A DNA stretch of 33,476 bases, taken from an uncultured Spirochaetaceae bacterium. GTDB taxonomy: Bacteria; Spirochaetota; Spirochaetia; Sphaerochaetales; Sphaerochaetaceae. The stretch spans positions 1 to 33,476 of the forward strand of contig CALXKU010000024.1 of NCBI GenBank assembly GCA_944389025.1. The letters are read 5' to 3'. The notes beneath the pieces were generated by a model, which saw nothing but the letters and a program-made list of their open reading frames with translations, ran no database searches and was not told where the DNA came from. Made by a program: the position numbers and the translations under genes. Below, piece by piece: positions 16,034 to 28,642 of the stretch (within the stretch, counting starts at the first letter, position 1; every line of letters begins with the position of its first letter).

Positions 16034-17431
16034 TTATTTTTGTACTATGGAATTGTTTTCTTCCTTTGCGATGAGTTTTCTTGCAACACTTAGCGAGATG
16101 ATGGTGGTAGGTATGGCGATTCCGCAGTTTGAAATCATCATCATGACTCCAAGGGCGGTAGCACCATCTTCTATGAAAAGCTGGAGGATGAAGAGGACGG
16201 GAATGCGCAGTACGAATATCTTGAGAAAGTTCAGAAGCAGCGTTATCTTCGTCTTTCCAAGACCGAGGAGGAAATCCATCCCCGCGCCGTTTATGGCGAT
16301 TCCTATGCAGCTGATCGAGTCATAAATGAATATCTTTCCTATCATGCTCATGAAGTCGGGATTAAGGCCATCCCTGCTTGTTGCAAATACCCTGATGAGC
16401 GGCTCGTCAAGAATGTAGATTGCACACATGGCTATAAGGCATGCCACAAGTGTTATGACGATATTCGCCTTATAGGCATCAACCGCTCTTTTATACTTTC
16501 CCGCTCCGTAGTTCTGACTCACGATGGAGGATGATGCGTCCGAAAAGCCGTTTTCAAAATTTGAGGGAATACCGCATATGTTGTTCGATATTCCCAAGGC
16601 TCCTATCATCTCAGCCCCGTATGAGGAGGCAAGTGCGTTTACAACCACCTTGCCAAGACTGAATGCGGAGTCTTCAACTGCCACGGGATATGATATTCTT
16701 ACAAGTCTTTTCTCATCGTCCCTTCTTGCTTTGAAAGCGAGGGGTAGGTCGAGTGAGAATATGCTTCTCTTATCGAAAAGATGTATGAGCGAATATAATG
16801 CGAAAAGGGAGTATGTAATAAGTGTCGCGAGTGCTATGTATACGATACCTTTTTCGAGAACATAGATGAAAAACGCTGAGAGAATGAGTTTTATCACCAT
16901 GGTGATTATGTTAAGCATCATTATCGTCTTGGTGTTTCCTCTCGATTTCTCAACATTGATGTATATGAGATTGAGAAAGTTTACTGCTGTTGCGGCTATC
17001 AGGATTCTGAAGTAGGGGGTACCCTCGGCAATGAACTCTTCCGGCGTGCTTATAACTTTCAGTATCAATGGTACGAATGGGATTAGAGCAAGGAAGACGA
17101 GTGTTATAATCGCCATCAGGCGAAAGAGGCTGTTCATAAGCTCATGCGCCTTAGCACTTTCTCCAGCGCCGTATGAGCGGTTTATTAGGATCATCGAACC
17201 GGTCACGAGTCCGGATCCTATCGCGTTGAGAATCATCCTAAGCTGCGCCATGTATGCTACCGTGGACACGTCGATCGTTCCCAGGTGGCTTGCCATGATA
17301 GTATCAAGAATAGAGAAGAGGGTGTTGAAAAGGGCGAATATGGCAAGCGGAGTCCCAACCTCGACTATCAGGTGATAGAGGTTTGAGGTGAGCGAGTACG
17401 CCCTGAATTCCTTTTCCGTCATCTTTCTCAT
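16034..17431 (-). CDS. MATE-family efflux transporter, second copy
   Basis: This 465-residue 12-helix MATE protein is only distantly similar to its neighbour. It has TLFSILDTIMASHLGTIDVS in the first bundle and SSSIVSQNYGAGKYKRAVDA in the second, both typical MATE positions. Unlike the downstream MATE gene it has an SD (GGGGAA) before its ATG. The 50-bp gap between the two MATE genes contains a separate promoter for the downstream one. Two adjacent divergent MATE proteins could form a heteromeric or sequential system, but nothing in the sequence proves that. Confidence 0.88.
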   Translation of the reverse strand: MRKMTEKEFRAYSLTSNLYHLIVEVGTPLAIFALFNTLFSILDTIMASHLGTIDVSTVAYMAQLRMILNAIGSGLVTGSMILINRSYGAGESAKAHELMNSLFRLMAIITLVFLALIPFVPLILKVISTPEEFIAEGTPYFRILIAATAVNFLNLIYINVEKSRGNTKTIMMLNIITMVIKLILSAFFIYVLEKGIVYIALATLITYSLFALYSLIHLFDKRSIFSLDLPLAFKARRDDEKRLVRISYPVAVEDSAFSLGKVVVNALASSYGAEMIGALGISNNICGIPSNFENGFSDASSSIVSQNYGAGKYKRAVDAYKANIVITLVACLIAMCAIYILDEPLIRVFATSRDGLNPDFMSMIGKIFIYDSISCIGIAINGAGMDFLLGLGKTKITLLLNFLKIFVLRIPVLFILQLFIEDGATALGVMMMISNCGIAIPTTIISLSVARKLIAKEENNSIVQK

Positions 17432-24059: not shown

Positions 24060-25199
24060 ATGTCATCATACATAGACTGCGACACCCACTACATAATGAT
24101 CCAAAGCAGAGGGATATGGGCTTACAAATGCAAAAACCCGGAGACGGGTAAGTGGTGCAGCCGTTCCTGCGGTACAAGGAACCTCAACAAAGCTCTCATC
24201 GTCATCTCAAAACGCCTTGCGGAAGGCAAGCTCCTTTATCCGGACGGCTACAGGTCCCGTGGGGCTTCCCCAAAGCCGAAATACGACAGGCGGACGTTCG
24301 GCGAGCTGACCGAGAACTATTTCGTCCATGGGAAGTGCCCCATAGAGGCCGGCAGGGAGAAGAGGGGCAAGAAGATATGCCTGAGCACCCTGTACACCTA
24401 CGAGAAAAACAAGAAGGCGAAGATCCTTCCATATTGGAAGGACGAGATACCCCGCAACATTACGGAACAGATGTGCGACCGATACCTTCTTTCACTTCCG
24501 GATCTGTACGGGATAACAAGAAGCTCCGCAAACACCGTATTCGGAGTCTTCAGGACCATGCTCGACCAGCTCAAGGCCGACGGGTTCATCGACAGCAACC
24601 CTGCGGCGGGGGTGAAGCCTCTGGCGAATGATACGAAGGAGAAGGACGTGCTCACCGTGGAAGAGCTCCATAGGCTGTTCGACGTGGAATGGCCCAGCAA
24701 GATCGCAAAGACAGCCATGAAGACCGCGGCTCATACGGGGATGAGGATAGGCGAGGTGAGGGCCCTCAAGGGGGAGCAGATCCAGGGGCTCTCAATCGTC
24801 GTAGATGCAAGCTTTTCAAGGATCGCAGGGAGGAAGGAGCCTAAGAACTACAAGACAAGAGAGGTCCCAATAACCCAGAGCCTCAAGGATGAGCTCATGC
24901 AGTATGCAAGGGGCGATGACGAATACCTCTTCTCCATCAAAGGGAGCAAGCCTATAAGCGTCAACGCAATACTGAAAAACCTCAAGACGGCCTTGAAGAG
25001 AGCAGGGATAGAGAAGCATATAACCCCGCACTGCCTGCGGCACGGGTTCAACACCATGCTCATCTCGCACAATGTGAGCAGCACCATAGTCAAGTCTGCG
25101 ATAGGCCACTCGAGCGATGCGATGACGGAGCACTACCTCCATCTGAAGGCCGACGACATGGACGCCATAAGGGCGGTGCAGGAGGAGATTGGAAATTAA
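24060..25199 (+). CDS. int: Phage tyrosine integrase
   Basis: This site-specific recombinase inserts the phage into the chromosome. The 379-residue protein has an arm-binding N-terminal part, a SAM-like core-binding domain (about 80-190) and the catalytic domain. The catalytic residues are visible: Arg in TGMRIGEVRAL, Lys near NYKTREVPI, His-x-x-Arg in HCLRHGF, His in GHSSDAM and the nucleophile Tyr in EHYLHLK. The SD AAGGAGGAG precedes the ATG. It marks the left end of the prophage. The attachment site is probably in the 258 bp between it and the ABC operon, but the other copy is outside the window so I cannot define it. Confidence 0.95.
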   Translation: MSSYIDCDTHYIMIQSRGIWAYKCKNPETGKWCSRSCGTRNLNKALIVISKRLAEGKLLYPDGYRSRGASPKPKYDRRTFGELTENYFVHGKCPIEAGREKRGKKICLSTLYTYEKNKKAKILPYWKDEIPRNITEQMCDRYLLSLPDLYGITRSSANTVFGVFRTMLDQLKADGFIDSNPAAGVKPLANDTKEKDVLTVEELHRLFDVEWPSKIAKTAMKTAAHTGMRIGEVRALKGEQIQGLSIVVDASFSRIAGRKEPKNYKTREVPITQSLKDELMQYARGDDEYLFSIKGSKPISVNAILKNLKTALKRAGIEKHITPHCLRHGFNTMLISHNVSSTIVKSAIGHSSDAMTEHYLHLKADDMDAIRAVQEEIGN

Positions 25200-26567: not shown

Positions 26568-26906
26568 TCAAATTGCGGTCTGATTTTTTGAAGATATCCG
26601 AAGAACTCTTTCTACAAGCTTTAAATCATCTTCAGATGCTTTCATACATGCATCTGCTATGGTTCTGACTCTTAAAGGATAAATCACAGTTTCTTTACTC
26701 CCTGAAACTAAATATTCCATAGAGATGCCGAGATACTTCGAAATTTCATACAAGTCCAAAACAGAAGGAATTCTATTTGACGATCTTTGCTCTTTTATTC
26801 TTTGATACTTGATGCCACATTCTTCTGCTATAGTTGATAATGGCTTTTGCTGTCTTTGCAAATCTATTCGTTGCCATATTTCATAAGCTTTTTCTGCGGT
26901 GTTCAT
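26568..26906 (-). CDS. XRE-family phage repressor, short CI-like
   Basis: This 112-residue protein has an N-terminal HTH_XRE domain: LSTIAEECGIKYQRIKEQRSSNRIPSVLDLYEISKYLGISMEYLVSG (about 23-69, given in parts: helix 2-3 turn AEECGIKYQRIKEQ and the closing LGISMEYLVSG). A short helical tail follows, with no LexA/CI peptidase domain, so SOS cleavage of this protein itself is not expected. It is divergent from the early plus-strand genes, the usual place for the lysogeny repressor. Its start codon follows a -10 box by 6 nt, so its mRNA is probably leaderless, as in lambda cI made from PRM. An 18-bp palindrome covers its -35 region. Confidence 0.85.
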   Translation of the reverse strand: MNTAEKAYEIWQRIDLQRQQKPLSTIAEECGIKYQRIKEQRSSNRIPSVLDLYEISKYLGISMEYLVSGSKETVIYPLRVRTIADACMKASEDDLKLVERVLRISSKNQTAI

Positions 26907-28076: not shown

Positions 28077-28084
28077 TTCAATAG
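28028..28084 (+). CDS. Possible 18-residue peptide gene in the hairpin loop
   Basis: An ATG at 28028 directly follows GGGGAGGAA. It opens 18 codons (MPKTPTNTHEITSPPGFQ) that end in TAG at 28082-28084, immediately before the first base of the tRNA at 28085. The SD lies in the hairpin stem, so translation would be coupled to its opening. Such a short frame can arise by chance; no homology is claimed. Confidence 0.3.
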   Translation: MPKTPTNTHEITSPPGFQ

Positions 28085-28156
28085 AGCCCTTTCGACCAAC
28101 GGCAGGTCACATGCTTTAAAAGCATCGGGATCAAGGTTCGAATCCTTGAAGGGCCT
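28085..28156 (+). tRNA. Phage tRNA-like gene, class I, anticodon UAA
   Basis: All cloverleaf parts have standard sizes. The acceptor stem is 28085-28091/28149-28155 (first pair A-C mismatched). The D arm is GACC-AACGGCA-GGTC (28094-28108). The anticodon arm is 28110-28126 with loop TTTAAAA and anticodon TAA at 28117-28119, its outermost pair C-C. A 5-nt variable loop follows, then the T arm CAAGG-TTCGAAT-CCTTG (28132-28148) and discriminator T. Anticodon UAA should read the leucine codon UUA, but tRNA-Leu normally has a long variable arm, which is absent here. CCA is not encoded. The amino acid identity is therefore unclear. Confidence 0.75.
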
Positions 28157-28166
28157 TAGAGGATGA

Positions 28167-28200: not shown

Positions 28201-28224
28201 GACTTCTCGAAACAAAGAAACGAT

Positions 28225-28310
28225 AGAGCGGTGGCAGAGAGGCCTGATGCGGCTGTCTTGAAAACAGACGGGGGTGACACCTCCGTGGGGTTCGAATCCC
28301 TCCCGCTCTG
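28225..28310 (+). tRNA. Phage tRNA-Ser, anticodon UGA
   Basis: This 86-nt class II tRNA has a perfect 7-bp acceptor stem AGAGCGG/CCGCTCT and a 3-bp D stem GCA/TGC typical of tRNA-Ser. The anticodon loop is CTTGAAA with anticodon TGA (28259-28261). The long variable arm (28269-28285) has loop TGACA. The T arm is TGGGG-TTCGAAT-CCCTC, and the discriminator is G, the usual base for serine. Mismatches occur at the outer pair of the anticodon stem and of the T stem. CCA is not encoded. It would read UCA (and some UCN) codons. Confidence 0.88.
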
Positions 28311-28313
28311 GTA

Positions 28314-28370
28314 GCGACAGGACGAGTGCGATCAGAGAATGTCGCATTTAAGGAAACCGTTCGGAAACGG
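28314..28370 (+). other. Two small hairpins in the second tRNA spacer
   Basis: GCGACA (28314-28319) pairs with TGTCGC (28340-28345), and CCGTT (28357-28361) pairs with AACGG (28366-28370) over the loop CGGA. They fill most of the 67-nt gap between tRNA-Ser and the mini-tRNA. Confidence 0.45.
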
Positions 28371-28377
28371 AACCGTG

Positions 28378-28422
28378 GGGGAGCAGGGATGGCAGATCCG
28401 GGTTCGAATCCCGGGCTCCCCC
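28378..28422 (+). ncRNA. 45-nt mini-tRNA-like element lacking an anticodon arm
   Basis: A perfect 7-bp acceptor-type stem GGGGAGC (28378-28384)/GCTCCCC (28415-28421) encloses a 13-nt segment with ATGGCA, resembling a D loop with its GG. A perfect T arm CCGGG-TTCGAAT-CCCGG (28398-28414) is directly joined to the 3' acceptor strand. The acceptor and T stems would stack as a 12-bp minihelix. The anticodon arm and variable loop (about 30 nt) are missing. It may be a decayed tRNA, a tRNA mimic, a processing signal, or an old attachment-site fragment. It lies 28 bp before the AlpA-like gene. Confidence 0.6.
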
Positions 28423-28450
28423 ATAACCTGGAAGAAGAGGAGGACGAGAC

Positions 28451-28642
28451 ATGGAGTTCGAGTATATGAACCTCAAGAAGATGGCGGAGTATACAGGCAT
28501 CCCATACAGCACGCTCAAGGCGTACAAGAGGAAGGATCCCGACTTCCCCGGGTCATTCATGCTGACCAAAAGGAAGATCTTCTACAGGAAGGATGAAATA
28601 GACGCCTACTTCGCAGCAAAAAGAAAAATAGCAGGTGCCTGA
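28451..28642 (+). CDS. AlpA/excisionase-like HTH protein
   Basis: This 63-residue protein has a MerR/AlpA-type winged HTH: NLKKMAEYTGIPYSTLKAYK (helix-turn-helix, about 7-26), then RKDPDFPGSF and the wing KRKIFYRKDEIDAYFAAK. Proteins of this size and fold in phages act as excisionases or as activators of integrase and early genes. It is not next to the integrase, so a regulatory role is at least as likely. A strong SD (GAGGAGG) precedes the ATG. It follows the mini-tRNA by 28 bp and may share its transcript. Confidence 0.75.
   Translation: MEFEYMNLKKMAEYTGIPYSTLKAYKRKDPDFPGSFMLTKRKIFYRKDEIDAYFAAKRKIAGA

Follow-up and report, generated by a model that had tools for sequence, protein, structure and literature searches.

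An anticodon-less tRNA-like element in a Sphaerochaetaceae prophage and a candidate class of phage intercistronic elements

What is a 45-nt element that pairs like the acceptor stem and T arm of a tRNA, yet has no anticodon arm, doing in front of a phage excisionase-like gene? The element lies in a 33,476-nt stretch of DNA (the window), which makes up the whole of contig C24, one of 39 contigs in the 2.3-Mb genome of an uncultured Spirochaetaceae bacterium. The use of tRNAs as punctuation between genes is textbook biology for mitochondria; as a general phage device, we know of no description of it. Here we describe the element, its full-length counterpart in the same genome and elements of the same architecture in other prophages and in cultured phages.

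Anatomy and setting of the element

A prophage occupies the right third of the window and contains an integrase, a divergent repressor-like gene, early genes on the + strand, DnaD/DnaC-like replication genes and a nuclease (Table 1). Between 28084 and 28451, two called tRNAs are followed by the element and then by the excisionase-like gene, whose Pfam HTH_17 match is below the curated cut-off. The element is the final member of the tRNA array in the early region and stands just 5′ of the ribosome-binding site of this gene; the gene that precedes it is a tRNA, not a coding sequence, and the gene that follows is co-directional with it. A tRNA-Leu is expected to have a long variable arm; the tRNA called Leu in the window and the one called Leu in the related prophage described below (locus L036, 16098–16172, minus strand) both lack this arm and have mismatches in the anticodon stem, and decoding by either is doubtful.

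Table 1. Features of the window around the tRNA-like element
Feature	Position	Strand	Basis
Tyrosine integrase	24060..25199	+	Pfam Phage_integrase, 1.9e-25
HTH_3 repressor-like gene, divergent from early operon	26568..26906	-	Pfam HTH_3, 6.3e-4, under curated cut-off
tRNA-like gene called tRNA-Leu(UAA), 74 nt	28084..28157	+	ARAGORN and Rfam; sequence read
tRNA-Ser(UGA), 88 nt	28224..28311	+	ARAGORN and Rfam
Leader GGAAACCGTT..AACGGAACCGT, directly 5′ of element	28346..28377	+	87% identity over 38 nt with G000:C4
Anticodon-less tRNA-like element: acceptor stem, D-loop-like spacer, T arm, N73	28378..28422	+	Read directly; 40.5 bits with model R1
5′ acceptor strand: 7 bp from 28378 and two extending pairs (U28376, G28377)	28376..28384	+	Complementary to 28415–28423
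Spacer in D-arm place; ATGGCA at 28389–28394, candidate G18–G19 for elbow	28385..28397	+	Read directly
T arm: 5-bp stem, loop TTCGAAT	28398..28414	+	Read directly
3′ acceptor strand, N73 (C28422), A28423; CCA not encoded	28415..28423	+	Read directly
Shine–Dalgarno-like AGGAGG between element and next start codon	28438..28443	+	Read directly
63-aa HTH_17/excisionase-like gene	28451..28642	+	Pfam HTH_17, 8.4e-5; PHROG 66 excisionase, 3.2e-6

The two strands of the acceptor stem, GGGGAGC (28378–28384) and GCTCCCC (28415–28421), form seven of seven Watson–Crick pairs, and the pairs G28377–C28422 and T28376–A28423 extend the helix to 9 bp. A pair of the G28377–C28422 type is the mark of tRNA-His in bacteria; we claim no functional meaning for it here. 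The 13-nt spacer (AGGGATGGCAGAT) leads directly into the T arm, CCGGG-TTCGAAT-CCCGG, whose stem is perfect, and there is no anticodon arm. Direct reading thus confirms the anatomy given in the earlier note on this DNA: a 7-bp acceptor stem, a 5-bp T stem with the loop TTCGAAT and a 13-nt segment holding ATGGCA, with the anticodon arm absent. The argument drawn there, that perfect pairing in both stems speaks against decay, is weak, because both stems would survive a recent single deletion unharmed. By secondary-structure energy, the tRNA-like fold (−25.4 kcal/mol) comes slightly behind the minimum-energy structure (−27.4 kcal/mol), in which GGGAU in the spacer is paired with AUCCC in the T stem; these energies ignore tertiary contacts, including those between the D loop and the T loop.

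Chance level and known RNA families

ARAGORN and Rfam, run on the window, do not call the element, unlike the two full tRNAs upstream. It has no match to tRNA (Rfam RF00005) at the gathering score and no ARAGORN tRNA call, and an ARAGORN tmRNA search of the window and the Rfam search for tmRNA were both negative. The best non-tRNA resemblance in Rfam is to mascRNA-menRNA (RF01684), at 21.4 bits and an E value of 0.07 in a 501-base search, far under the cut-off of 42.5 bits. With model R1, built from the acceptor stems and T arms of host tRNAs, the element's score corresponds to an E value of 2.7e-8 for the 2.3-Mb genome, with the element itself being one of the 27 rows of the training set; in the first pass of the model search over this genome, the next-best match, at 22.8 bits, lies inside an ordinary tRNA. 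Order-1 shuffled windows contained 0.075 similar objects each, at a lower score requirement.

A full-length tRNA at the same site in a sister prophage

Contig C4 of the same genome carries a related prophage with the same gene order as the window prophage. In it, a full-length tRNA stands directly behind a 38-nt leader that is 87% identical to the one in the window; this tRNA is called as tRNA-Leu(CAA), and a Shine–Dalgarno sequence and an open reading frame come next. Inspected by hand, this sister tRNA has intact acceptor, D and T stems and a mismatched anticodon stem, in which Rfam also flags non-standard pairs. The shared leader, together with a full tRNA whose anticodon stem is faulty, is the best evidence that the element descends from a tRNA and that the anticodon arm is dispensable at this site. 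A full tRNA here in related phages was what the earlier note had named as evidence against its reading; such a tRNA does follow the same leader in the sister prophage, but with an anticodon stem that is itself faulty.

Judged from these sequences, derivation of the element from a tRNA by deletion is plausible. The stems of the element and of the sister tRNA, compared by hand, differ by three double changes that keep the pairing, and if the two are homologous, their stems would have changed in step at these three pairs.

The element could accordingly be read as the product of a recent deletion, a phage tRNA gene that lost its middle and persists as a non-functional remnant with its stems intact. 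The full-length tRNA after the same leader speaks for this reading, as does our finding no orthologous mini-element in another genome, and the tRNA-like fold of the window element is not its minimum-energy fold. One clean deletion would be insufficient, however, because the spacer has no simple alignment to tRNA positions 8–21. The three double changes, the anticodon stem already faulty in the sister tRNA and the constraint on the same reduced architecture in many phages (below) likewise argue against a remnant, which we consider unlikely, although a serious contender.

Two further structures accompany the shared leader. Between a tRNA-Gln and the leader, the sister prophage has a 113-nt tRNA-like structure (L036 16217–16329, minus strand) with an acceptor stem, a T arm and an oversized middle, called by neither ARAGORN nor Rfam. 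The leader itself carries an inverted repeat in both prophages (in L036 at about 16165–16202, minus strand). A search of viral contigs for the leader pattern gave no match, and none of the proteins of the window, used as baits, was found in viral contigs. Prophages of the genus that were found through a VRR-NUC-like protein had neither tRNAs nor mini-elements in the stretches examined.

Stand-alone elements in Sphaerochaetaceae

Across 139 genomes of the family, searched with the generic minihelix models R1 and R2, stand-alone elements free of any tRNA call occur at about eight other loci (in genomes G074, G068, G026, G114, G091, G100 and G008 and, more weakly, G079), located in prophages and in a sugar-binding-protein operon. 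In G091 and G100, orthologous elements in a prophage early region differ in the acceptor stem by a compensatory double change from A–T to G–C. Conservation with compensatory changes in the stems, which the earlier note had proposed to look for, is found for the class; the window element has a single homologous site, and this is occupied by a full tRNA. The locus in G008 has the layout of the window, with a repressor-like gene, a tRNA, tRNA-like elements and an excisionase-like gene (named by eye); its element can pair in more than one way and is the least certain of those in the family. In G074 and G068, the elements share one locus, 3′ of a sugar-binding-protein gene, the protein being named by eye from its open reading frame. 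At the orthologous sites after this gene, seven other genomes (L152–L157, L160) have plain GC-rich hairpins of varied sequence.

Many R1 and R2 matches of 22–28 bits were rejected after ARAGORN placed them as T arms within full tRNAs or tmRNAs. One match of 39.5 bits, in G412, was excluded from the count, as a long tRNA of full size is an alternative fold for it. Read the other way, it is a 54-nt tRNA-like element (L094 1620–1673, minus strand) with an acceptor stem, a D-arm-like hairpin and a T arm but no anticodon arm, between ATPase-like and replication-like genes of what appears to be another prophage. A phylum-wide search scored few candidates and missed even the window element, so that absence outside the family is not evidence.

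Recurrence in viral contigs

We searched viral contigs for GATGGY with GGGTTCGATTCCC shortly after it, a pattern chosen from earlier matches, and obtained at least 120 matches; among the 82 in the first loci, 24 lie within called tRNAs. Because the pattern is silent on the outer helix, it permits an unbiased test of the stack of acceptor and T stems. Thirty of the 62 distinct non-tRNA matches complete a 12-bp stack, whereas permuted 3′ flanks gave 0.66 on average and at most 4; 24 of these 30 have exactly 12 bp, a sharp peak.

A structural scan of the same viral loci, which demanded at least 11 bp, found 62 elements (43 with 12 bp and 13 with 13 bp) in which the stack is split 5/7, 6/6 or 7/5; outside annotated phages, such counts depend on our own scanner. 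In these viral elements, the T loop TTCRA is near-invariant and TGG recurs in the spacer. Within a uniform 5/7 subgroup, every cell pairs and double changes occur at 8 of the 12 pairs; because pairing was the criterion by which this set was chosen, the double changes carry less weight than the permutation test. In GC-rich viral contigs, genes called automatically cannot be relied on, and we therefore used distances to stop codons, and annotated phages, to place the elements. A same-strand stop codon lies at −6 to +16 nt from the 5′ end in 45 of the 62 elements, compared with 13% of random positions and 10 of 62 on the antisense strand.

Matches of a looser motif, GGTGGTCCG, in viral contigs were mostly coding sequence or full tRNAs and were discarded, as were matches adjoining the integrase of Gordonia phage BetterKatz, which look like attachment sites, not mini-elements. 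In one viral contig, a Glutamine-II riboswitch (Rfam RF01704, 48.5 bits; L231 1535–1588) is located some 200 nt 5′ of a tRNA-like element.

Intercistronic gaps of annotated phages

Fourteen strict elements were counted over the 84.6 kb of Gordonia phage VanLee, on one strand only (shuffles, 0.2), and all of them lie in annotated intercistronic gaps, 2–31 nt past the stop codon. With one mismatch allowed, an element on the coding strand is present in 16 of 18 intercistronic gaps in VanLee (counting gaps of at least 60 nt within the element-bearing block), in 7 of 7 in Cafasso and in 7 of 9 in Mycobacterium phage Cuke, usually at most about 40 nt from the stop codon; shuffled gaps of the three phages gave 0.04–0.18 elements and the antisense strand gave 0. 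Streptomyces phage Dagobah and Caudovirus D_HF2_7 have one element each in the stretches read.

No Rfam 15 family reaches its gathering score in a 39.6-kb stretch of VanLee, and none covers the elements of nine viral loci. The class of intercistronic half-tRNAs is uncatalogued, with no such family in Rfam. The remark in the earlier note that it knew of no established phage example agrees with this and with our finding no paper on such elements in the open-access literature; a description elsewhere is possible.

Genes for RNA-related proteins were seen in two of the phages. In VanLee, which has the largest number of elements, the gene for a Ro-like RNA-binding protein lies beside a tRNA gene, a polynucleotide kinase and a nucleotidyltransferase (L374 20454–22367). 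Corynebacterium phage PSonyx (L375 5005–6269) has one element, identified by eye, with an RtcB-like RNA ligase gene just downstream.

Relation of the window element to the class and to known systems

Members of the class combine a 12–13 bp acceptor/T-stem stack, the T-loop sequence T(T/C)C(A/G)A and a short spacer, and the spacers of most, not all, of them, including unrelated elements, contain (A/G)TGG(T/C). The window element has 7 + 5 bp and two extending pairs, the loop TTCGAAT, a spacer of 13 nt and, at 28389–28393, ATGGC. With model R3, which derives from the 5/7 viral subgroup, the match is confined to the T arm of the window element (13.8 bits), and the Sphaerochaetaceae prophage elements L206 and L179 reach 33.4 and 23.0 bits; the class membership of the window element rests on architecture.

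Several known systems share parts of this architecture or of its placement. In the tRNA punctuation of mitochondria, including t-elements, tRNAs or tRNA-like structures between the genes of one transcript are cut by tRNA-processing nucleases; these are mostly real decoding tRNAs, whereas the elements described here lack the anticodon arm, cannot decode and are predicted, from their structure, to be processed. RNase P reportedly cleaves bacterial operon mRNAs between genes (Li and Altman 2003, cited in PMC4919922), and the likeness is that of RNase P acting within a bacterial polycistronic mRNA; we know of no account in which the sites in such mRNAs are tRNA top halves that bear a T loop and recur from gap to gap. 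The tRNA-like domain of tmRNA likewise has an acceptor stem, a D-loop and a T arm and no anticodon arm, but the window element has no messenger part, tag sequence, G3–U70 alanine identity pair or ARAGORN call.

The mascRNA and menRNA elements at the 3′ ends of mammalian MALAT1 and MEN-beta share the acceptor stem, the T arm and a reduced middle, and RNase P and RNase Z release them from a longer transcript (PMC4919922); they belong to eukaryotic long non-coding RNAs, whereas the present elements lie in bacterial and phage mRNAs, in many copies per genome, and would be processed similarly. E. coli RNase P RNA cleaves AT1-type model substrates of an acceptor stem and a T arm, essentially the same two-helix stack (PMC11143913); those are laboratory constructs, whereas the natural elements retain a D-loop-like strand with GG. 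Arm-lacking mitochondrial tRNA genes of nematodes and mites are also about 45 nt long (PMC7730189, PMC2797822), but they lack the D and/or T arms and keep the anticodon, the reverse of the window element.

Discussion

The anatomy, recurrence, placement and covariation of these elements were observed in the analysis. The window element would amount to the top half of a tRNA, a tRNA-length stack of acceptor and T stems plus a single D-loop strand whose GG may dock on the T loop. Such a stack, the T loop and a D-loop-like GG able to form the elbow are the parts read by tRNA-maturation enzymes. Because these parts are retained, and given the cleavage precedents of AT1-type substrates and mascRNA, we propose that the elements punctuate polycistronic mRNA.

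In the early polycistronic transcript of the prophage, RNase P would take the element for a pre-tRNA and cut at about 28377/28378, and RNase Z would cut at about 28422/28423. The two cuts would detach the excisionase mRNA from the tRNA part upstream, and this mRNA would be left with a 28-nt leader and its own ribosome-binding site. Transcription, cleavage and a benefit to the phage we infer. Of the roles suggested in the earlier note, the one with most support is that of a signal for processing or stability of the downstream mRNA, as the architecture recurs in intercistronic gaps of unrelated phages; the processing part of that suggestion is a prediction.

We regard it as an even call whether the window element works in this way, as a punctuation element cut by both enzymes. 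It is a single copy, it follows a tRNA and not a stop codon, model R3 matches its T arm alone and the tRNA-like fold is not the one of minimum energy, all of which count against it. It may be an instance of a wider class of phage intercistronic punctuation elements. That such widespread, uncatalogued mimics punctuate the polycistronic mRNAs of phages and of some bacterial operons, which host tRNA-maturation enzymes would cut into monocistronic messages, is a tentative reading, a little short of even; the existence of the class is far better supported than the function of its member in the window. In many viral members, the element overlaps the upstream stop codon (at a distance of about −5), and 5′ cleavage would remove that codon, which counts against the proposal. 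For this subgroup, the step that matters may be cleavage on the 3′ side only, after which the message would end in a tRNA-like structure.

Other functions have been weighed against punctuation. The elements could act as 3′-end or stabilising hairpins, for which any GC-rich hairpin would suffice and the T-loop likeness would be incidental, and the GC hairpins that replace the mini-elements of G074 and G068 in seven other genomes fit this. A plain hairpin needs none of the near-constant 12-bp stack with its break at 5/7, 6/6 or 7/5, the near-invariant TTCRA loop or the recurrent TGG of the spacer, and we think this reading improbable. A decoy for host enzymes or toxins that attack the acceptor ends of tRNAs, shielding the true tRNAs during infection, seems very improbable: a top half would be enough as bait, and such attack is a known defence (Cas12a3, PMC12851939), but a decoy has no need to stand beside stop codons in nearly every intercistronic gap. 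That the window element is a relic of site-specific recombination, the 3′ part of a tRNA retained as a phage attachment site, is hardly credible and was set aside: T-arm-like sequences beside phage integrases do exist, as in BetterKatz, but the element retains its own 5′ acceptor strand, the integrase is 3 kb away and a search of the genome for another copy of the element's T arm and 3′ acceptor strand found none.

If punctuation by anticodon-less tRNA mimics is confirmed, it would explain what fills many unannotated gaps in phage operons and would involve RNase P and RNase Z in the expression of phage genes. It would also provide annotation tools with a new class of RNA, tRNA mimics without the part that decodes.
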